Part shown: positions 7,829 to 24,272 of the stretch, piece by piece
Numbering within the stretch: the first letter of the stretch is position 1
Layout: each line of letters opens with the position of its first letter
NCBI RefSeq assembly: GCF_004346205.1
Contig: NZ_SMAM01000001.1
Coordinates: 124,001 to 188,000, forward strand
Length of the DNA stretch: 64,000 nt
Source: Bibersteinia trehalosi
GTDB taxonomy: Bacteria > Pseudomonadota > Gammaproteobacteria > Enterobacterales > Pasteurellaceae
Direction of reading: 5' to 3'
Program-made: the position numbers and the translations under genes
The notes under the pieces: generated by a model
What the model saw: the letters and a program-made list of their open reading frames with translations, nothing else
What the model was told of the DNA's origin: nothing
The model's database searches: none

Positions 7829-7883
7829 CAAGCGGTCAGATCGTAAAAAATTTTGCAAAATTTTGCGCTAATCTGACCGCTTG
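7829..7883. terminator. Inverted uptake-sequence pair; intra-operon attenuator
   Basis: Exact 13-bp inverted repeat caagcggtcagat / atctgaccgcttg, each arm carrying most of the uptake core. The loop contains the palindrome aaaattttgcaaaatttt. It lies between the binding protein and its permease and probably keeps the binding protein in molar excess. Confidence 0.6.
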
Positions 7884-13975: not shown

Positions 13976-15871
13976 ATGAACAAGCAATGTTTCCGCGTTA
14001 TTTTCAGTAAAACACGCCAACGTTTAGTGGTGGTCTCTGAACTCGCAAAATCAGAAGGTAAATCTAGCGAACCATCCTCTTTTTCTGTTTTGCCACTTTT
14101 TGCCAAAATTCGACCGCTTACCTTTAGCTTATTTTGTGCGCTAGGTTTTGTCATGTTTTCGGATGCAGCATTGGGCGAGACATTAATTATTCGAGCCGAT
14201 AAATCCGCCCCGAAAAACCAGCAACCCATTATCCTTTCGACCGCCAACGGCATTCCGCAAGTCAATATTCAAACCCCAAACGATAAAGGGCTTTCCCATA
14301 ATAAGTATTCGCAATTTGATGTCGCTGAAAAAGGGGCAATTTTAAATAATAGCCGAACAAATACTCAAACTCAGCTTGCGGGGCAGGTTGCGGGCAATCC
14401 TTATCTGGCACGCGGTGAGGCGAAGGTGATTTTAAACGAAGTCAATTCTAGCAAGCCTTCGGTCATGAAAGGCTATGTGGAAGTGGCAGGCAAAAAGGCG
14501 GAGGTGATTATTGCTAACCCAAGCGGTTTACATTGTGAAGGCTGTGGGATTATCAATTCAGACCGTGCGACATTAACCACAGGCAAACCGCAAATTAAAC
14601 ACGGTCATTTAGACAGTTTTGTGGTGGAAAAAGGCAAGGTGAAGGTTTCAGGCAAGGGGTTGGATAATAGCCGTGTGGATTATACGGAGATTATTAGTCG
14701 TCATGTGGAAGCCAATGCGGGCATTTGGTCGAAAAAAGAGACCCGCGTCATTACGGGGAAAAACACTGTCAAGCGGTCAGATTCCGACAAAAATTTGCAA
14801 ATTATTCACACAAAGCAAGCGCTTGCAGGGGAGTCAAAACCGCAGGTGGCCATTGATGTGGGCGAGCTGGGCGGTATGTACTCGGGCAAAATCCATTTGA
14901 TTGGCACGGAACAGGGCGTGGGCGTACGTAACGCAGGGCATATTGGGGCAAGCGCTGAGACGCTCACCATCGACAGTCAAGGGCGGATTGTAAACAGCGG
15001 CACGCTCAATGCGCAAAAGCCCGTGCAACTGACGGCGCAAAACGGCATTGATAACCAAGGCAAAATTGAAAATAAACAGGGCGATATTCAGCTTAACTCG
15101 AAAGCCGATATTCAAAATAGCGGTTCAATTGTGGCGAGAGGCGGCAATATTCAGCAACAAGCCAAAAGCGATATTAAACAACGCGGTGAAACGGTGGCAA
15201 AAGGCAATATCACCTACACCGCCCACCAAATTCACGCCGATAAAAATTCACTGATTGCCGCAGGGGTAGACGTAACCGACACTGCACAAGGCGAAGTGCG
15301 GAAGCTGGAAACTCAATCTGCGGCAGGAAAAACCATTCAGCTCACTTCTACAGAAAAAACAGCCGTACAGGGTAAAAATATCGCTTCGGGTAAAATTAAC
15401 GTTTCGGCGGCTAGCATTGATGCCAATCAGAGTCAAAACAGTGCCCATACCGTTGAATACAGTGCCAAATCGGGGGATATTCAGGCGAATAACGCCCGTT
15501 TAACGGCAGAGCTAATTCATTTAACTACGCCAAACGTACTTTCTACGCAAGGCAGTTTTTTAACGGCAAAAGCGATAAACACTTCACAACAATTCTTAAA
15601 TGCACAAAATGCGGTGTGGAAACAAACGGGCGAGCAAGATTTTCATTTAACGGGAGAGAGTGTTAATACGCAAGGGGGTGAGTTTAGCACACAAGGTAAT
15701 TTTTTCGTTAATGCTACGCAATTAGACAATAATCAAGGTACGCTAAGCAGTGGAAAATCACTCTTTTTGGATTTAAAAGGTGATTTAAATTCGGCTGATG
15801 GAACATTATTTGCAGGTGAAAATCTCACACTTAATAGCCAACACTTAAATAATGACAACGGCTTAATTTAG
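13976..15871 (+). pseudogene. fhaB: Filamentous haemagglutinin FhaB (TpsA), 5' part, cut short by an internal deletion
   Basis: 631 codons, against several thousand for intact TpsA proteins. The N terminus has an extended signal peptide region (MNKQCFRVIFSKTRQRLVVV, then SELAKSEGK), followed by the hydrophobic signal with cleavage near FSDAALG (about residue 66). Next comes the TPS secretion domain with NPYL and NPSG motifs and two cysteines (HCEGCG), then beta-helix repeats rich in N, G and Q (IQNSGSIVARGGNIQQQA). It stops at TAG 15869-15871 straight after LNNDNGLI, in the middle of the repeat region. The 3' part of fhaB then continues in another frame. No fhaC/tpsB partner lies in this window. 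An uptake core lies inside at about 14770. Probably a non-functional remnant. Confidence 0.85.
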
Positions 15872-17117
15872 TGATGGAATATTTAATATTCAGGATGTAG
15901 AAGGGCAAGAAAATCTAGACCGAATTACAAAATCAATAGTAGAACAAACAAATCATTTAGATAAACCTGATTATCAATCGTTGAGAAAAGACGTGGAAAC
16001 GGATTCATCTATTAAACGACAATTCTTTTCGAATATAGCAGGGTTTACGGATGAGGCTTATCGGACGATGTTTATCGCTGAACATAGAATGATGACTGCG
16101 GAAGTTGATGAAAAAGGAAATCCGATAAAAGATAAACAGTTGGAAAAAGCCCTAGATAATGAGGCTCGTAAAGAGATTGATAAAAAATTAAGTAAGGGAG
16201 AAATTACCCAAGCCGAATATAACAAAGAAGTTAATAAATATAAAAAAGATGAATTAGGTAAAGGTCGTAATATTTATCAGTTACGCGAAATTTCTGATCA
16301 GGAGCGAAATAACCTGCAAAAAGTAACTTATACAGATCCTCTGACAGGAAAATCGGAAACAAGGTATGTGGTGGCGTTTAACGGTATTTTTAATGACGAA
16401 AATGCAGCAGCTAAATTTGCTTGGCAAAACTATATGGCTAAAGAAAGTGAATCAGGAAAAATAGACAGCCGAATTTATAAAGATGTCTATTTTGTTCATC
16501 ATCCAGAAGCAAAAAATCCTATTTCTGAGTTATTGGTTGCAGGTTATGAAAAAATGTTTGAAGGTTCTTTTGGTAACTTATTGGGAATGGATAATTCCAG
16601 TTTACAAGCAAAAGATATTATGACTAAGTATGGTAAAGATAATCTGTTTATTGGCTCACACAGCCGTGGTACTTTAACCGTTGCTAATGCATTAAGTGCA
16701 TTAAATACCAAAGAAAATCGTGAGGCTAAACTACTATCTGATACAAAAGTTAAAATGGTTGGTCCAGCAGCAAATGTAACCAATTCAGATAATACATTAA
16801 GCCAATTACAAACAGGTTCTTCAAGAAATGAGGAAAATAAAAATGGCTCTATTCGTATTGAAAATCATAAGTTAGATCCTGTTGGTAGTTTACCGATTGT
16901 ATTGGGCGGAAATCTAGCTACGATGAATGATAATGTCCATGATAGAGGCGTAGTCAGACGAATCCTTGATATGTTCGGACCTGATTCATCTATGCATAAC
17001 TGCTATGGTTTAGGGCAGGAGCAGTGTGTAATGGATGGTTATCGTAAAGAAAACGATTTAATCATGAATAAAGAACAAACTATTTATGATTTGAATAGAA
17101 ATTCAAACAATAAATAA
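15867..17117 (+). pseudogene. fhaB: FhaB 3' part: pre-toxin region plus lipase-like C-terminal toxin domain
   Basis: Open from 15867 in a different frame from the fhaB 5' part, with no clear start codon until well inside (TTG at 15981; first ATG later). The first residues (FSDGIFNIQDVEGQENLDRI) resemble the region before toxin domains of TpsA/CdiA proteins. The toxin region has a nucleophile-elbow motif IGSHSRGTLT, then HKLDPVGSLP and then SMHNCYGLG. These supply Ser, Asp and His in the order of an alpha/beta-hydrolase lipase triad, and DPV-LP resembles class 3 lipases. I infer a lipase/phospholipase toxin. It ends 12 bases before a lipoprotein gene. As it stands it is probably untranslated unless a frameshift restores the join. 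Confidence 0.7.
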
Positions 17118-17129
17118 AGGAGAAATACG

Positions 17130-17468
17130 ATGAAAGCATTCACGGTCATTTTTAGTATTTTCCTTTTAATTGGTTGTTCATTTGGTGGGTTTAGACCTCC
17201 TCCACGATATTATGTTTGGTTTTCTAAAGACAAGACATTTGACTCATTAGTTGAATTAGTTGCTACGAGAAAGAAAGAGATGTTAGCTTGCGGAATGGAT
17301 CCAGTGCTAGGAGAAAGTGGTAATTCTAAAGTTAATTTATGTTTCGAATCAAAAGGTTGGTATTTAAAAGGTGGCCCTGTATGTGAAAATAAATTGATGT
17401 GGAATGATGAATTATGTATCAAATGGCGAGCGAAATATAGTAAACCGAATGCGAAACCATGGGGGTAA
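17130..17468 (+). CDS. Small lipoprotein, probable immunity protein for the adjacent toxin (copy 1)
   Basis: 112 residues behind aaaggag. Signal peptide MKAFTVIFSIFLLIGC has a lipobox (LIGC), so it should be anchored to a membrane facing the periplasm. The body has four conserved cysteines in ACGMDPVLGES, NLC, GGPVC and CIKW, and ends SKPNAKPWG. No database family comes to mind. Two further paralogues follow within 1.1 kb, each after toxin DNA or remnants, the layout of toxin-immunity arrays. A periplasmic lipoprotein is the usual immunity type for phospholipase toxins (for example Tle/Tli pairs), which fits the lipase-like toxin. The immunity role is inferred from position. Confidence 0.7.
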   Translation: MKAFTVIFSIFLLIGCSFGGFRPPPRYYVWFSKDKTFDSLVELVATRKKEMLACGMDPVLGESGNSKVNLCFESKGWYLKGGPVCENKLMWNDELCIKWRAKYSKPNAKPWG

Positions 17469-17492
17469 TCATTCTAGATAGTAGCCCATTAA

Positions 17493-17735
17493 GATCATGT
17501 CGGTAGCTTACCTATTGTATTGGGCGGAAATCCATCCACACTGAATGATAACCACGAAAATAGAGGAGCAATACAACGAATGATTGATATGTTCGGAGAT
17601 AACTCATCTATGCATAATTGCTATGGTCTAGGTCAGGTACAATGTATCAAAGATGGATACCGACAAAAAGGAGATTTAATGATGAATAAAGAACAAACAA
17701 TTTATGATTTAAATAGAAATCAAAACGGTAAATAA
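17493..17735 (+). pseudogene. Orphan C-terminal tip of the same lipase-like toxin
   Basis: An open stretch after a TAA, with no toxin N terminus, reads DHVGSLPIVLGGNPSTLNDN and continues to SSMHNCYGLGQVQC and YDLNRNQNGK. It repeats the last 80 or so residues of the toxin at 15867-17117 (DPVGSLPIVLGGN to the end), including the putative catalytic His but not the Ser. It is a displaced toxin tip left by duplication or recombination, of the orphan CdiA-CT/MafB-CT kind. Confidence 0.75.
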
Positions 17736-17746
17736 AAGGAGAAATA

Positions 17747-18109
17747 GTGATGAAAATATTTAGTATTATTGTTGGTGTTTTCTGTCTGATTGGATGCTCA
17801 TTCGGTGGATTTAAACCACCTCAGCCGTATTACAAATGGCGTCTTCATGACTCAATAAAATTATATCCGCCTTCACAAGAAGGTAGCTTTTTTGAATTAT
17901 TAACTCATCGTGAGAATGACATGAGATCTTGTGGTATGGATCCTGTATTAGGCGAAAGCGATAAACTTAAAGTTAATTTGTGTATGGAAAAAAAAGGATG
18001 GTATCTAGAACAGGGTCCGGTGTGTGAGGAAAAAGATGTATGGAATGAGCCAGAATGTATTAAATGGCGTGCAAAACATAGTAAACCCAATGCGAAGCCG
18101 TGGGGGTAA
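17747..18109 (+). CDS. Small lipoprotein, probable immunity protein (copy 2)
   Basis: 120 residues behind aaaggag, with lipobox signal MKIFSIIVGVFCLIGC. Clearly a paralogue of the gene at 17130: it shares SFGGF-PP, RSCGMDPVLGES, KKGWYL, GPVCE and CIKWRAKHSKPNAKPWG, with all four body cysteines. It has about eight extra residues after the N-terminal third. It follows an orphan toxin tip, so it is probably the immunity gene of that displaced variant, kept because it may protect against toxins of neighbours. Confidence 0.7.
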   Translation: MMKIFSIIVGVFCLIGCSFGGFKPPQPYYKWRLHDSIKLYPPSQEGSFFELLTHRENDMRSCGMDPVLGESDKLKVNLCMEKKGWYLEQGPVCEEKDVWNEPECIKWRAKHSKPNAKPWG

Positions 18110-18160
18110 CTCATCTGCGTATACCTCCGATGGTATTAATAAAAAGTAAGGAATGAAACT

Positions 18161-18572
18161 ATGAAAAAATTTTTTATTTTGCTAAGCCCATTGCTTCTCA
18201 GTGGATGTCTGTTAGCTACAATCTTTCCAAATGATTACTATAAATGTGCTTAGTGGATGGTGTAAAGAGAAACCAGAACGACAAAATTATGTTTGGAATC
18301 TGCGTTCTAGTGAAAATCATAGATTGCCTGCAGCTACTGATAACAACTTTATCTCTGCCTATCTAACAGTACGTAAGGAGGATATGAGATCTTGTGGAAT
18401 GGATCCAGTATCAGGTTATAGTAATGATATAGAACCTAGCTTATGTTTAGAGAAAAAAGGATGGTATTTGAAAGGTGGTCCTGTTTGTGAAAGCAGAACA
18501 AGATGGGATAATCCTAAGTGTGTATCATGGCGTTCGAAATATAGTAAACCAGATGTAAAGCCTTGGGGATAA
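18161..18572 (+). pseudogene. Third immunity-like lipoprotein gene, frameshifted
   Basis: The ATG at 18161 opens a lipoprotein signal MKKFFILLSPLLLSGC and continues to NDYYKCA, where a stop follows. The rest continues in another frame: GWCKEKPERQNYVW, RSCGMDPVSGYS, LCLEKKGWYLKGGPVCE, and the end SKPDVKPWG. Together they rebuild a complete paralogue of the two lipoproteins upstream, so a single indel near 18235-18255 broke it. A sequencing error cannot be excluded. Confidence 0.75.
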
Positions 18573-19322: not shown

Positions 19323-19369
19323 AAGCGGTGCGATTTGTGAAAAATTTTGCAAATCGTACCGCTTTCTTT
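19323..19369 (+). terminator. Terminator closing the toxin island, uptake-sequence based
   Basis: Stem aagcggtgcgatttg / caaatcgtaccgctt (one G-U) around a short A/T loop, followed by tctttt. Confidence 0.75.
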
Positions 19370-19420: not shown

Positions 19421-20725
19421 ATGGCAAAACAGCATCTTTTAACTGTGGGTGGCGAGCGTGTGGCAGTTGTCAGCGGCGTGCGTACGCCATTTGTCGATCG
19501 TGATGGGGGATTTAAATCTTCTTATGCGACAGATCTTGGTACTATGGTCACTAATGAACTTTTAAGTCGTAGTGCTTTAGCCCATCAGCAAATTGAGCAA
19601 TTAGTCTTTGGGCAGGTGATTCAGCAACCTGATATTCCCAATCCTGCACGGGAAATCGCTTTGGCATTGAATATGCCCACGACCCAATCTTATACGCTGA
19701 GTAGTTCTTGTCTTTCAGGGTTGCAAGCTTTGGTTAATGTTACTGGGAGCATTGTAAGTGGGTCGATTTCGGTTGGTATTGCAGGGGGGGCAGACTCAAT
19801 TTCTAATGCACCATTTAGTATTAGTCCGCGAGTGGTTTATCAGCTGAAGAATATTTTGAAAGCACCGACTTTAGAAGAAAAATATCGTCGGTTTAGAGCC
19901 TTTTCTTGGCGAGATTTAAAGCCGCATTCAGTGGATTTGAAAGACTATATGACTCGGCTTTCTGTTGCTGAAATTTCGGAACAGATGGCTCAACAGTTTC
20001 ATATTAGTCGTGCAGATCAAGATGCGTTTGCGCGCCAGTCCAATATTAAGGCTCAAGATGCTTGGAAAATTGGGCTGTTTAAAGAAGAAGTCATCCAGGC
20101 ATTCCCTCGTCCTTATACTGATTTTGTGGTATCAGATACTCTGTCTTCACAAGCCTGCCGTATGCGTTTTTATGAGCGTGCACCGACAATGCTAAATAAA
20201 AGCTATGCCACTGTGACAGAAGCTAATATTCCAAAAGTAAAAGATGGGGCGGCGGCTGTGCTGTTAATGCGTGAGAATAAAGCAAAGGATTTGGGATTAC
20301 AGCCTTTGGGGTATATTCGTAGCTATGCGGTTACTGGTAACGATATTTGGCAAAACATGTTTATGGGAGCGGTCATCTCAAGTAACGAAGCGTTGAAACG
20401 AGCAAACTTAGCTCTGCAAGATATGGATTTAATTGATATTCATGAAACTTCAGCCAGTCAAATTTTGGCGAATATGCAATTGTTCGAGAGTGAAAAATTT
20501 GCAAAAGATCAGCTAAATCGTACCGCTTGTTTGGGACGAATTGATATGAGCAAGTTAAATATAAATGGTGGCTCAATTGCTTTTGGTAACCCGAGAGCAG
20601 CAACTAGCCTACGTATTTTAATCCAATCATTGTATGGCTTAAAACGACGAGGTGGCGGCTTATCATTAGTGGCTTCTAGTGGATTAGGTGGATTAGGTGC
20701 GGCAATGGTACTGGAGAGCGAATAG
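19421..20725 (+). CDS. fadI: FadI-like thiolase with altered catalytic residues
   Basis: 434 residues, co-linear with E. coli FadI (436), the 3-ketoacyl-CoA thiolase subunit of the anaerobic fatty-acid oxidation complex. The acyl-accepting Cys97 is kept (SSSCLSG), and so is the His of HETSA (341). However, the GHPxAATGAR motif reads GNPRAATSLR, so the catalytic His is Asn390. The C-terminal catalytic Cys (ACAAGGLG in E. coli) is Ser420 (ASSGLGGLG). Family thiolases need these residues for deprotonation, so normal thiolysis is doubtful. The next gene, fadJ, starts 8 bases later and shows parallel losses. The start has no clear Shine-Dalgarno site. Confidence 0.85.
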   Translation: MAKQHLLTVGGERVAVVSGVRTPFVDRDGGFKSSYATDLGTMVTNELLSRSALAHQQIEQLVFGQVIQQPDIPNPAREIALALNMPTTQSYTLSSSCLSGLQALVNVTGSIVSGSISVGIAGGADSISNAPFSISPRVVYQLKNILKAPTLEEKYRRFRAFSWRDLKPHSVDLKDYMTRLSVAEISEQMAQQFHISRADQDAFARQSNIKAQDAWKIGLFKEEVIQAFPRPYTDFVVSDTLSSQACRMRFYERAPTMLNKSYATVTEANIPKVKDGAAAVLLMRENKAKDLGLQPLGYIRSYAVTGNDIWQNMFMGAVISSNEALKRANLALQDMDLIDIHETSASQILANMQLFESEKFAKDQLNRTACLGRIDMSKLNINGGSIAFGNPRAATSLRILIQSLYGLKRRGGGLSLVASSGLGGLGAAMVLESE

Positions 20726-20733
20726 GATAGTGT

Positions 20734-22878
20734 ATGGAATTAAATCAAACGCAAATTGAACAAACGCAATCTGCTTTCCAAGTGGAAATTGACCGTAATA
20801 GGATTGCGATTGTGACCATTGATGCCCCAAATAGTATATTGAATTGGTTGCCAGATAATTTTGTGGATGCACTGAGAGAAGTGATTGGTACCGTGATTTA
20901 TCAGCAAGCGCGTGGGGTTATTTTAGTCTCTGGTAAGCCAAATCATTTTATTCAAGGCTATCGACCAAGCCATTTATTGTCATTGAGCCGAGAACAACTC
21001 ATTGCATTTTCAAATAATGCTCAACTGGTGATGCGAGAAATTAATACGTTAAAAATGCCAGTGATTGCAGTGATTGATGGTGAATGCTATGGCTTAGGTT
21101 TGGAGCTCGCTCTTGCGTGTGATTATCGTATTGCCAGTGAATCAGTGCATACTCGTTTTTCTATGCCGCAAGTGCGTTCGGGTATTTTGCCTTTTGCTGG
21201 CGGTACACAACGTTTAACGCGTTTAATTGGTTTGCCAAATGCCATGACAATGTTGCTTTCAGGGCAGAAAATTGGGGCTGAGAAAGCATTAAGTTTGGGA
21301 CTGGTCGATAAATTAATTCCCGCTTCTAATTTATTTGAAACGGCGTATTCTCTCTTGCTCAACAACCAAGTGCAAAAAATTGACCATAAACGACCGCTTG
21401 TCCGTTTTAAGCACTGGCGTAAACAGATTGAATCTATTCCATTGATTCGTAATAAATATCTTGCCATGGTCGAGAATCGGGTATGGTATAAAACTTTTGG
21501 TAATTATCCTGCGGTAACAAAATTATTAGAGCTGTTAAAAGAACCTCATTTTAAGCAAGGATTGGCATTGGAGCAGCAGGCTCTGGCTGAATTGCAAGCT
21601 ACTGAGCAAGCAAGAGTGTTGATCAATCTAAAAGTCACAGAGCGGGAAATGAAATCGCAATATGTCAATTTGGCACAAGTGCAAGATGTAAAGCAGGTAA
21701 GTATTCTTGGTAGTGGCTATATGGGGGCTGGGATTGCGTATATTACGGCAAACTATGCCCAAATTCCTGTGCGGATTAAAGATATTCATCCACTAGGCAT
21801 TCAAAAGGCTTTGCGTTCTTGCTATTTGCTAATGCAAAAAGCGGTGAATCAAAAACGTATTTCGCATGGAAATATGATTCAGCGAATGAATTTAATCACA
21901 GGCGGAGAGCGTTTATTAGCGGCTAAATCGACTGATTTTATTATCGAAGCCGTCTATGAAAATTTGGAACTAAAACAGCAAATGGTGCGAGAGAGTGAAG
22001 CGTATTATAGCGAAAATACGATTTTTGCCACGAATACTTCAACCTTTGCAATTCGTGATATTGCATCAGTGGCAAAGCGTCCAGAAAATGTGATTGGTTT
22101 GCACTATTTTAGCCCTGTGACTAAACGGAAAATGGTTGAGATAGTCCCTCATGAAAAAACTTGTGAGAACACCGTTGCAACCGCGATTCATTTTGCTATT
22201 CAGCAAGGTAAAATTCCGCTACTAGTTTCTGATAGTGAAGGCTTTTTTATCAATCGTATTTTAACGCCCTACCTATTAGAAGCGATTGAATGTGTGGTGG
22301 AAGGGGAGGCAATTGAATTTATCGATCGTTCACTGCTGGAATTTGGTTTTAAAATTGGGCCTTTGGCAATGATCGATGAAATCGGCTTAGACGTATTGGC
22401 AAAATCTATCCCTGCGATGGTAGAAAAGCTGGGCGAACGATTTAGTTTGCCGGAAAAAGTAACGTATTTGATCGATAACGATCGTAAAGGGCGCAAAAAC
22501 CGTCGTGGTTTTTATCTTTACGACAGCAAAGGTAAACGTAGCCAAGAAGATAAAAGTATTTATCATGTGATGGAAACCATCACGACCAATGATCTTGAAG
22601 CGGAGCAGATTGCCCGTCGTTGTTTGTTGCGTATGATTAATGAGGCGTGCTGGTGTTTGCAAGATAAGGTGATTCGTAGTACCGATGAAGGCAATGTTGC
22701 TTCGGTATTTGGGGTGGCGTTCCCTGATTTTCGTGGCGGCATTTATGCTTATATCGAAAAAATTGGGGCAAGTGAGATCGTAAATCAGCTTCGTAAACAT
22801 GTTCAGATTTACGGTAGCCGTTTTGAGCCATGTGAATGGCTAATCAAACAGGCTGAACAAGCGGTACAAAATCAATAA
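20734..22878 (+). CDS. fadJ: FadJ-like multifunctional protein with a degenerate hydratase half
   Basis: 714 residues, as in E. coli FadJ. The N-terminal crotonase-like domain should hydrate enoyl-CoA. Here the oxyanion motif AGADI is replaced by QGYRP (residues 74-78), and the second catalytic Glu (LPEVQLG) is Gln146 (MPQVRSG), while Glu124 in GLGLELALAC is kept. The second half, 3-hydroxyacyl-CoA dehydrogenase, looks intact: NAD motif GSGYMGAGIA, FIIEAVYENLELKQQM, GLHYFSPV with catalytic His, and the C-terminal DRKGRKNRRGFYLY. With FadI it would form the alpha2beta2 complex. The present enzyme may only keep the dehydrogenase step or bind acyl-CoA. Confidence 0.87.
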   Translation: MELNQTQIEQTQSAFQVEIDRNRIAIVTIDAPNSILNWLPDNFVDALREVIGTVIYQQARGVILVSGKPNHFIQGYRPSHLLSLSREQLIAFSNNAQLVMREINTLKMPVIAVIDGECYGLGLELALACDYRIASESVHTRFSMPQVRSGILPFAGGTQRLTRLIGLPNAMTMLLSGQKIGAEKALSLGLVDKLIPASNLFETAYSLLLNNQVQKIDHKRPLVRFKHWRKQIESIPLIRNKYLAMVENRVWYKTFGNYPAVTKLLELLKEPHFKQGLALEQQALAELQATEQARVLINLKVTEREMKSQYVNLAQVQDVKQVSILGSGYMGAGIAYITANYAQIPVRIKDIHPLGIQKALRSCYLLMQKAVNQKRISHGNMIQRMNLITGGERLLAAKSTDFIIEAVYENLELKQQMVRESEAYYSENTIFATNTSTFAIRDIASVAKRPENVIGLHYFSPVTKRKMVEIVPHEKTCENTVATAIHFAIQQGKIPLLVSDSEGFFINRILTPYLLEAIECVVEGEAIEFIDRSLLEFGFKIGPLAMIDEIGLDVLAKSIPAMVEKLGERFSLPEKVTYLIDNDRKGRKNRRGFYLYDSKGKRSQEDKSIYHVMETITTNDLEAEQIARRCLLRMINEACWCLQDKVIRSTDEGNVASVFGVAFPDFRGGIYAYIEKIGASEIVNQLRKHVQIYGSRFEPCEWLIKQAEQAVQNQ

Positions 22879-22904: not shown

Positions 22905-24272
22905 ATGAAATTTTCTAAAATTGCCTTATCAGTTGCTGCTATTGTTAGTGTTATTGCAGTAGGCGGAAGCTGGTACACAGGAAAACAAGCCGAAAGCCGT
23001 TATCAACAGTTGGTAGAGCTTTCGAATAAGCAACTTAAAGGGCTAGAAAGTCATGGCATTTTCGCTGAAATTAAAGATGTAAAATTAGAGCGTCATTTTT
23101 TTAGTTCGGATGTGGCTTATCGTTTAGAAGCTAAAGTTGATGGTGAGAAATTTGTCGTAGATGGGCAAGATAAGCTCTATCACGGGCCATTCCCATTAAA
23201 TCGATTAAGCCAATTCAAATTATTCCCTGTTGTTGCCAGTTTACAATCAAAATTCATTTTACCAGAGCAATGGCAGCAAAAATTGCAACGTACGGAATTA
23301 GGAGAAGGTGTTGCTGATTTTGCTTATAGTGGTGCGATTGATGGTGTATTTACTGTTCCCGCATTGAGTTATCAAGAAGATATGGGCGATAAGCTTGAGC
23401 TTGCCGATGTTACGATGAAATATAGCTATCACCAGAATTTGAACGGGGGACAAGGGGAGATCTCGACTGATCTCGTGAAGCTTTCTGATGATTACGGTAG
23501 TCATACTGAGATTTCAGGGGTGACTTACCATTTTGATTATAAGCCAAATTCAAATTATGCTTTGCTGGGCGATAGTAATGCTAAAGTCAACGTTAAGCAG
23601 ATCAAAGGTGGTAAAGGAGATAGTATTGAAATAAAAGATTTTGAATTAGACTTTGACGGCAAAGTGGAAGGAGAGCGAGCTTTATCGGATGTTTTACTAA
23701 GCTTTAAGTCGTTAATGGTTAATGGCACAAATAATTTCGGTTCAATGCAGTTGAAAAGTGATTGGAATGTGGATGCCGCACTTTATCAGCAATTTTTAGA
23801 TTTAAGTGCTTCTGGTGAAGTTGAGACAGAAATCATTGGCGATGTGATGCTGAAATTATTGGCTAAACAAGCAAGTTTCAACATTAAAGCACTTAAATTA
23901 GAGAATAAAGGCGGTAAAGCAAATTCAGCACTCTCATTGAATTTTAATACATTTTCTCCAGAAAAATTCGCTAATACTGACTTAACGAATGTGTTAAAAG
24001 CATTAAGACAATCTTCTTTAGATGTTGCTTTAGATAGAGATTATGTCGCTCATCTTATGCAAGCGGGGGGGGATTCAAAAGAAGATGCCCAAAAAGCGGC
24101 TGAAGAATTCTTTGCGACATTGAAAATGTTTTCCCTTGTATCGCAAGAAGAAAATAGAGCAAAATTGGCATTAGCCATTGATAATGGCAAAGTCACATTA
24201 AATGGCAAAGCGCTATCAGATGATGATTTGCAAGGATTATTATTTATGTTAGCAATGATGGCTGCTTTTTAA
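22905..24272 (+). CDS. YdgA family protein (DUF945)
   Basis: 455 residues behind aaaagga. An N-terminal hydrophobic helix ([21 protein letters not shown]) is followed by the family start [12 protein letters not shown] and a long periplasmic domain. The C terminus ([21 protein letters not shown]) is typical of the family. Its role is not known to me; E. coli YdgA-type proteins sit in the inner membrane facing the periplasm. It lies 26 bases after fadJ and 19 before ttcA, so the genes may be co-transcribed. Confidence 0.8.

Follow-up and report, generated by a model that had tools for sequence, protein, structure and literature searches.

A FadI/FadJ-type gene pair with altered thiolase and hydratase active sites in Bibersteinia trehalosi and other Pasteurellaceae

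The gene pair and its distribution

The window analysed here, a stretch of 64,000 nucleotides from Bibersteinia trehalosi (Pasteurellaceae; assembly GCF_004346205.1, contig NZ_SMAM01000001.1, positions 124,001 to 188,000), contains two adjacent open reading frames (ORFs) that resemble fadI and fadJ, the genes for the anaerobic beta-oxidation trifunctional enzyme of E. coli (PDB 8bnr, 8bnu, 6ysv). Both lie on the forward strand, as do the codons listed below, and they are separated by 8 bp. The first codes for a FadI-like (beta) thiolase subunit with a remodelled active site (19421..20725; intact ORF, 434 amino acids), and the second for a FadJ-like (alpha) subunit that combines an altered hydratase half with a 3-hydroxyacyl-CoA dehydrogenase half (20734..22878; intact ORF, 714 amino acids). 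Gene order, length, domain order and predicted fold are those of the E. coli system. The replaced catalytic residues suggest that the pair may have acquired a new function in acyl-CoA metabolism, an interpretation that we hold tentatively and weigh below.

In a family sample of 140 Pasteurellaceae genomes, which includes that of the window, an adjacent FadI-like/FadJ-like pair was found in 49 genomes from 24 of the 43 genera (window genome counted). The proteins of the other 48 carriers share 51-79% (FadI-like) and 47-76% (FadJ-like) identity with those of the window. Carriers among the matches listed include Actinobacillus capsulatus, A. ureae, A. minor, A. indolicus, Glaesserella australis and Haemophilus sputorum, as well as Muribacter, Nicoletella, Ursidibacter, Otariodibacter, Gallibacterium, Testudinibacter, Chelonobacter, Spirabiliibacterium, Volucribacter, Lonepinella, Conservatibacter and Cricetibacter. 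The FadJ frame is open over its full length in 49 of 49 carriers and the FadI frame in 48. The remaining FadI-like gene, from the Actinobacillus group, to which A. capsulatus and A. ureae also belong (genome G001, L067, G001:C1:542913-544214), has one in-frame TGA next to an open FadJ frame; it was left out of the residue and conservation counts and of the tree, which are based on 48 readable FadI and 49 FadJ copies, while the table of dehydrogenase residues covers all 49 genomes.

Canonical sequences for comparison came from a contig scan in which the best 80 of 98 relatives comprised 32 Pasteurellaceae and 45 other loci. The FadJ of six of these 45 was not found at the threshold used, so that, with E. 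coli added, 46 FadI and 40 FadJ from outside the family were available. All 46 FadI are canonical at the catalytic positions and all 40 FadJ have the second hydratase Glu; one of the latter reads AGAN in place of AGAD. Thus, no variant member from outside the Pasteurellaceae was present among the 45 other loci from the best 80 of 98 relatives. A search of the order with a profile of the variant (394 genomes, 281 with a match) gave the same picture: 13 Pasteurellaceae copies scored 739.8-801 bits and the best copy from outside 541.7 bits, and the 17 outside copies examined all had canonical motifs.

Paper titles among the matches listed contained none on a FadI/FadJ pair of Pasteurellaceae. Papers in which the name of a Pasteurellaceae member occurs together with fadI or fadJ include PMC10137656 and PMC11201931, and a table in PMC1805755 has a fadIJ row with four zeros, in columns that are presumably its Pasteurellaceae.

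Active-site residues

Residue equivalences were assigned by alignment with FadI and FadJ of E. coli K-12. Those proposed in a first-pass annotation of this DNA hold in the alignment throughout, as does its statement that both genes are full-length and in frame. The canonical FadI site is made up of Cys99, His343 and His392 plus the base Cys422 (E. coli numbering); its counterpart in the variant is Cys97, His341 and Asn390 (Ser in 7 of 48 copies), with the base mostly gone. The nucleophile Cys97 (19709..19711; E. coli C99) is kept in 48/48 readable variants, as in 46/46 canonical sequences, and is also present in the FadI of G001, upstream of its break. His341 and Glu342 of the HEAF motif (20441..20446) are likewise invariant (48/48), and the motif now reads HETS, with Ser344 (20450..20452) in place of Phe (Ser in 48/48 variants vs. 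Phe in 46/46 canonical FadI). The GHPF motif has become GNPR. Here, Asn390 (20588..20590; E. coli H392) replaces a His found in 46/46 canonical sequences, the variants having Asn in 41/48 and Ser in 7/48 cases, and Arg392 (20594..20596) replaces Phe (Arg in 48/48 vs. Phe in 46/46). At the position of the base Cys (E. coli C422), which is occupied by Cys in 46/46 canonical FadI, the window protein has Ser420 (20678..20680), and the variants have Ser (38/48), Gly (7/48) or Cys (3/48), a loss in 45 of 48. In summary, a Cys-His-His-Cys thiolase site has given way to Cys-His-Asn/Ser; the base position now holds Ser or Gly and only rarely Cys, and an Arg has been added.

In the FadJ-like protein, QGYR at residues 74-77 (20953..20964) replaces the AGAD motif (E. 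coli 67-70). The first hydratase Glu, Glu124 (21103..21105), is kept in 49/49 copies. The second has become Gln146 (21169..21171; E. coli E140), which is Gln in 49/49 variants and Glu in 40/40 canonical sequences, and Ser149 nearby (21178..21180; Ser in 49/49) replaces a Leu conserved in 40/40 canonical FadJ. The oxyanion hole of crotonases is built from backbone NH groups, and therefore the change of AGAD alone does not prove a loss of function; the exchange of Glu for Gln would be the stronger evidence that hydratase activity is gone. The dehydrogenase half of the window protein retains all five expected features: the NAD-binding motif GSGYMG (residues 326-331, 21709..21726, by alignment to E. 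coli FadJ), the catalytic His457 (22102..22104; E. coli H446; 49/49) and Glu469 (22138..22140; 49/49), and the catalytic Ser and Asn, which are kept in 42/49 (lost in 7) and 46/49 (lost in 3) genomes, respectively. The motif windows of the window proteins contain no gap, and thus no catalytic residue is seen to be supplied from a shifted position, a possibility that the first-pass annotation had raised against itself. Its reading that the thiolase and hydratase signatures are lost and the dehydrogenase half is retained is supported. In seven carriers (G034-G037 and G132-G134) a linked change affects two active sites that lie in different subunits.

The divergence is also apparent from curated protein families. 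Both window proteins score far over the cut-offs of their Pfam domains, including both thiolase domains (PF00108 and PF02803) in the FadI-like protein, which also passes the NCBI cut-off for a general acyltransferase. They remain below the cut-offs for the specific enzymes: the FadI-like protein reaches 449.4 bits with TIGR02446 (cut-off 711.55) and 474.7 bits with NF006516 (560), and the FadJ-like protein 690.6 bits with TIGR02440 (968.45) and 731.7 bits with NF008363 (869).

Origin and selection

A maximum-likelihood tree of 94 FadI sequences (48 variants and 46 canonical; midpoint root for drawing only) places all variants on one side of a single branch with a support of 100/100. This branch is long: the midpoint root divides it into 0.95 changes per column towards the variants and 0.44 towards the canonical sequences. 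A defect of the window genome alone is therefore ruled out, because the changes are family-wide and fall in one clade. Relaxed selection in the window copy, whose tip branch is long (0.26), was also considered and rejected, as this copy is the exception at none of 107 FadI and none of 164 FadJ near-invariant sites (sites otherwise invariant or with one exception). That the change is common to the whole Pasteurellaceae clade of the pair was not foreseen by the first-pass annotation.

One explanation for such a pair is that it is the decaying remnant of a lost beta-oxidation pathway. Its absence from 91 of the 140 genomes and the in-frame TGA in the FadI-like gene of G001 would be in line with decay. 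However, the ratio of nonsynonymous to synonymous substitution rates (dN/dS) within the clade is 0.010-0.054 for FadI and 0.019-0.083 for FadJ (each gene yielded a value in 20 of 22 close pairs), although some of these ratios are rough because dS exceeds 1 in several close pairs. Such values, 0.01-0.08 overall, indicate strong purifying selection across the family and bear out the earlier suggestion that selection maintains both proteins. Decay is rejected on this basis; the frames open over their full length, in 48/49 FadI and 49/49 FadJ, also contradict it. In addition, the window FadI shares 77.6-79.3% identity with its homologues in five relatives (FadJ, 73.2-76.0%), which is above NadB (69.4-72.2%), close to CvpA (76.2-76.8%) and below an ABC-transporter ATPase (88.8-90.3%; compared proteins from three relatives). 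The pair is not a case of simple decay, and a remnant in the process of being lost is hardly credible.

The distribution of conserved sites within the two proteins is more informative with respect to function. Type II sites, defined as positions that are at least 95% conserved in both groups but for different residues, are concentrated in the active site of FadI: 8 of 9 fall in the four catalytic loops, compared with 10 of the 61 sites at which both groups conserve one and the same residue (Fisher p = 3.6e-5). FadJ has 12 such columns (one a gap column), of which two lie in the Gln146 loop and five form part of a C-terminal motif. Within the variants, mean conservation is 0.82-0.93 in the four FadI loops vs. 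0.74 in the rest of the protein, and 0.84-0.91 in seven of eight FadJ loops vs. 0.68 in the rest. Stretches of equal length that are as conserved are rare for the CxG loop (11 of 425 windows), the GHP loop (32 of 424) and the Gln146 loop (2 of 700). These counts depend on the canonical sequences returned by the scan and on the motif windows that we chose. The invariant new residues Gln146, Ser149, Ser344 and Arg392 favour a new, constrained role over mere loss. On balance, the active sites appear to have been rebuilt and then held, a pattern that would be poorly predicted by decay and by a pure scaffold alike.

The same data bear on the proposal of the first-pass annotation that the complex may perform the dehydrogenase step only. 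In this scenario the 3-hydroxyacyl-CoA dehydrogenase half alone works, and everything else is packaging kept for assembly. The retained NAD motif, His and Glu agree with it, and carrier genomes contain no other strong match to this enzyme family: strong matches to 3HCDH_N in the Pasteurellaceae stem solely from the FadJ of the pair (49 at E < 1e-37; the next at 9e-7). Left unexplained, however, are the newly acquired, invariant residues of the thiolase and hydratase loops and the retention of the adjacent thiolase gene in 49/49 carriers (48 with open frames). The above-average conservation of most altered loops and the loss of the catalytic Ser in 7 of 49 genomes weaken this proposal further, and we consider it improbable.

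Predicted structure and resemblance to KAS III

Single-chain AlphaFold2 models agree with the assignment of both proteins. The FadI-like model has a mean predicted local distance difference test score (pLDDT) of 92.6 and finds E. coli FadI (8bnr_A) as its best PDB match, with a template modelling (TM) score of 0.92 at 46% identity; for the FadJ-like model (pLDDT 89.2) the best match is E. coli FadJ (6ysv_A; TM 0.90, 41% identity). In a second structural search with the FadI-like model, the 50 rows listed were all thiolases (Z 55.9-58.9), including 2wl5 and 2wl6.

The residue set Cys-His-Asn, which is found in 41 of 48 variants, resembles that of beta-ketoacyl-acyl carrier protein synthase III (KAS III, FabH) and of BioZ and PqsD, the positions being matched by forced alignment. 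According to PMC7645780, KAS III has a Cys-His-Asn triad where FabB and FabF have Cys-His-His, the His and Asn of FabH are critical for decarboxylation, and an Arg side chain of BioZ was suggested as the likely partner of the substrate carboxylate. The last loop of the FabH sequence has no base Cys, as in the variant. When the C-terminal halves of the profiles were forced to align, His341 fell on FabH His244 and Asn390 on FabH Asn274, and the canonical FadI profile failed to give the same match. The correspondence of positions derives from this forced, non-significant alignment and from structural knowledge that we presume to apply, namely that thiolase and FabH catalytic positions are equivalent across the superfamily. 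By sequence and fold the variant is a FadI-type thiolase, linked to a FadJ-like gene, and its similarity to FabH is at the level of the superfamily only. Among 15 variants scanned against KAS III families, one at best reached PF08545 (E 0.049) and one PF08541 (E 0.071), whereas 15/15 matched thiolase families strongly and the related PF00109 weakly (best E 1.1e-4).

Fatty acid metabolism of the carriers

Beta-oxidation of fatty acids depends on an acyl-CoA dehydrogenase for the production of enoyl-CoA. This family (PF00441) has a match in 8 of the 140 genomes (7 over the cut-off; the E. coli control was positive) and in none of the 49 carriers, which makes ordinary beta-oxidation by the carriers very unlikely. 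Homologues of FadD and of FadL-family porins have a match in 140/140 genomes, a few of them in pieces. The carriers thus seem able to make long-chain acyl-CoA and unable to start beta-oxidation. In H. influenzae, fadL and fadD are described as present and fadE, fadB, fadH, fadA and complex II as absent (PMC5932069). The window genome contains one other crotonase-family protein.

These findings also bear on the idea that the pair is an ordinary FadI/FadJ enzyme with tolerated substitutions, which remains partly active in thiolysis, hydration and dehydrogenation and acts on an unusual or short-chain substrate. Changes of His348 in Zoogloea ramigera thiolase are reportedly less harmful to thiolysis than to condensation, which would count in its favour. 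So would the thiolase PcaF, which, according to PMC7337054, keeps 30% of its activity without the His (H356A) and 5% without both His and second Cys (H356A-C386A). However, both subunits stay under the curated FadI and FadJ cut-offs, the carriers have no match to an acyl-CoA dehydrogenase, and the changes are clade-wide and affect several sites at once. Retention of the ordinary function is thus very unlikely.

A candidate acyl-transfer complex

Our preferred interpretation, held with slightly less than even confidence, is that the pair represents a neofunctionalised FadI/FadJ-type acyl-CoA complex, which arose once in the Pasteurellaceae and in which the dehydrogenase half works and the thiolase half has been rebuilt to a KAS III-like Cys-His-Asn site. 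The two proteins would still form an alpha-beta complex and bind long-chain acyl-CoA made by FadD. Beta-oxidation would not be among the activities of this complex, since the search found no acyl-CoA dehydrogenase to provide enoyl-CoA, the hydratase is devoid of its second acid/base residue, and the thiolase mostly lacks the base for thiolysis. Cys97 would still be able to take up an acyl group, and the pair of His341 and Asn390 may serve acyl transfer or chemistry of the decarboxylative type and no thiolysis, so that the beta subunit would be an acyl-transfer or condensing site rather than a thiolase. The dehydrogenase half would interconvert 3-hydroxy- and 3-ketoacyl-CoA using NAD(H), while the hydratase half, judging from its residues, would no longer hydrate. 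As far as sequence data allow a judgement, the complex probably no longer burns fat and may perform other chemistry on fatty acyl-CoA. The description of the pair by the first-pass annotation as having lost catalytic residues is correct with regard to beta-oxidation; what it missed is that the pair is an old, conserved and apparently rebuilt complex.

Several observations weigh against a rebuilt acyl-transfer site. The base Cys is retained in 3 of 48 FadI, so its loss is not universal, and Asn390 is replaced by Ser in the same seven carriers, G034-G037 and G132-G134, that have Leu or Asn at the position of the dehydrogenase Ser. The forced FabH alignment has a P of about 0.06, obtained without the posterior cut-off, and an unforced comparison of the whole profiles aligned only the N-terminal half. 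The AGAD (QGYR) loop, with a mean conservation of 0.60, is the sole one of 12 loops below the rest of its protein, as would be expected for decay. The Cys loop (80 of 428 windows as conserved) and the HEAF loop (109 of 425) stand out less than the others and are less conserved than in canonical FadI, which is also decay-like; most catalytic loops are less conserved than their canonical counterparts, but the CxG loop is not. Finally, in the H356A mutant of PcaF a Cys-CoA disulfide is reported to block the site, and no useful acyl-enzyme is formed; the H348A mutant of Z. ramigera thiolase did not show such a disulfide (PMC7337054). The residual activities of the PcaF mutants caution, in turn, against regarding the variant as a dead thiolase.

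The precedent of a blocking disulfide, together with the moderate conservation of two catalytic loops, lowers our confidence in an acyl-transfer complex and raises that in a catalytically silent pair of pseudoenzymes. Such a pair would bind acyl-CoA in the role of a sensor, a buffer or a scaffold, for instance to protect the cell from free fatty acids or to feed phospholipid synthesis, and the dehydrogenase residues would persist only for the binding of NAD and acyl-CoA. Key residues are changed in two of three active sites in every readable copy, the hydratase oxyanion loop has lost its conservation, the Cys and HEAF loops exceed the average only moderately, and the dehydrogenase Ser and Asn are missing from 7 and 3 of the 49 genomes, respectively. 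The presence of FadL and FadD in carriers with no match to an acyl-CoA dehydrogenase would also suit a binding function, and MsTLP1 is a known thiolase-like protein that has neither the catalytic residues nor thiolase activity (PMC3406046). However, a pure scaffold would have no need for the invariant Cys97, His341, Glu124, His457 and Glu469, nor for CxG, GHP and Gln146 loops that are among the most conserved stretches of the proteins. We regard a silent pair as unlikely, yet as an alternative that deserves serious attention.

A more specific proposal is that the complex now works in the reverse, synthetic direction, in the manner of an elongase, with acyl loading on Cys97, decarboxylative condensation, reduction, product release and modification by a methyltransferase. 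The acyl group of FadD-made acyl-CoA would be transferred to Cys97 and condensed with a carboxylated extender of the malonyl type, held by the invariant Arg392, with loss of CO2. The dehydrogenase half would reduce the resulting 3-ketoacyl-CoA to (S)-3-hydroxyacyl-CoA, and this product would be released, since the hydratase has presumably lost the ability to dehydrate it. A methyltransferase dedicated to the complex might then modify the product or its carrier in three genus groups. This enzyme is a class I S-adenosylmethionine-dependent methyltransferase (PF08241; E up to 1e-20), encoded in 11 of the 140 genomes, all of them carriers and always directly after fadJ. These genomes belong to genus groups g10, g16 and g40 (L072, L070, L083 and relatives), taken as Testudinibacter with Chelonobacter and Pasteurella testudinis, as Gallibacterium, and as Spirabiliibacterium, respectively; 7 of the 11 are those in which residue 390 is Ser and the dehydrogenase Ser is missing. 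The methyltransferase may be a dedicated partner of the complex in these groups, but the full elongase scheme is speculative and, in our view, has a low probability.

Comparison with other FadI/FadJ complexes and thiolase-like proteins

E. coli FadI/FadJ and the variant have in common the nucleophile Cys, the HEAF His, the first hydratase Glu, the NAD motif, and the dehydrogenase His and Glu. They differ in that the GHP His, the base Cys and the second hydratase Glu are replaced in the variant, which has new invariant Ser, Arg and Gln residues, scores below the curated cut-offs and occurs in genomes without a match to an acyl-CoA dehydrogenase. Glu141 in the alpha subunit of the Mycobacterium tuberculosis trifunctional enzyme is presumably the Glu that corresponds to Gln146 of the variant. 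Judging by the titles of PDB entries 7o1i and 7o1k, alpha-E141A of that enzyme is a designed mutant, whereas the variant state is natural and found in 49/49 copies. Designed counterparts of the thiolase site exist as well. According to their entry titles, the Z. ramigera thiolase mutants H348N (2wl5) and N316H-H348N (2wl6) have Asn at the position of the GHP His in a thiolase fold, and the latter also has His at the NEAF position, an arrangement of His and Asn that is natural in most Pasteurellaceae copies. These mutants were made in the laboratory and presumably keep Cys378; the natural variants, in contrast, have lost the base Cys in 45/48 cases.

MsTLP1, Ltp2 and Sal, a set of thiolase-like proteins and aldolases, resemble the variant as proteins of the thiolase fold with replaced catalytic motifs (PMC3406046, PMC12329534). 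The same sources indicate that the replaced motifs of MsTLP1 are conserved in its homologues and that Sal has turned thiolase residues to a new reaction. However, these proteins belong to an SCP2-type branch, unlike the variant, in which the nucleophile Cys is kept. Moreover, Sal and Ltp2 have DUF35 partners and a YDC/YDH motif, and MsTLP1 is a monomer (PMC3406046, PMC12329534).

Genomic neighbourhood

The gene next after fadJ in the window, in the same direction, codes for a DUF945 (YdgA-like) protein (22905..24272, forward strand; PF06097). It is located directly downstream of fadJ in 28 of the 49 carriers. As a dedicated partner it was rejected, since the family has matches in 135/140 genomes, with or without the pair; this position in the neighbourhood is thus no evidence of a functional link, and the protein probably has no functional part in the complex. 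In 15 genomes of a second group of carriers (L072, L070, L077, L080, L082 and relatives), the gene immediately before fadI, which lies on the opposite strand, was named SmpB-like by eye.

The 250 bases upstream of fadI in the 49 genomes (122 in G036) were scanned for sites of FNR, CRP, ArcA and FadR, using what we take to be their consensus sequences. Hits occurred in 4, 4, 1 and 0 genomes, respectively, which is below the single-base shuffle means of 11.95, 5.9, 2.35 and 0.7. In the window, a terminator-like hairpin of 19 pairs is located upstream of fadI (19323-19364) and has AAGCGGT at both ends, as if two cores of an uptake signal served as terminator; in a terminator scan such sites were no more frequent than in shuffles. 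The DNA uptake signal ACAAGCGGTC, which we take to be of the Actinobacillus type, occurs in four copies, at 7875, 18649, 21392 and 51914 (0.08 expected in the window), and the copy at 21392 is inside fadJ. The window contains no copy of AAGTGCGGT, presumably the Haemophilus-type signal (0.49 expected). Further upstream, the region 13976-18572 comprises a truncated-looking ORF that resembles filamentous haemagglutinin by eye, followed by an ORF of 378 amino acids and three similar small lipoprotein-like ORFs (17130-17468, 17747-18109 and 18231-18572). Neither the 378-amino-acid ORF nor the three small ORFs gave a Pfam match over the cut-off.

Implications

Annotation rules would name the genes of the pair as thiolase and beta-oxidation enzymes and would thereby imply a pathway that the carriers seem to be without. 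The metabolic models of Actinobacillus, Glaesserella and Gallibacterium carriers need checking whether or not our functional interpretation is correct. Two active sites of a multienzyme complex that appear to have been rebuilt on one ancestral branch and then held are an uncommon natural experiment, and they lead to a testable prediction about the reaction catalysed by a thiolase fold that contains a Cys-His-Asn site. The pair is found in a family of animal-associated bacteria, in about a third of the species sampled, and in these organisms it may have been turned from the degradation of fatty acids to other chemistry on acyl-CoA.

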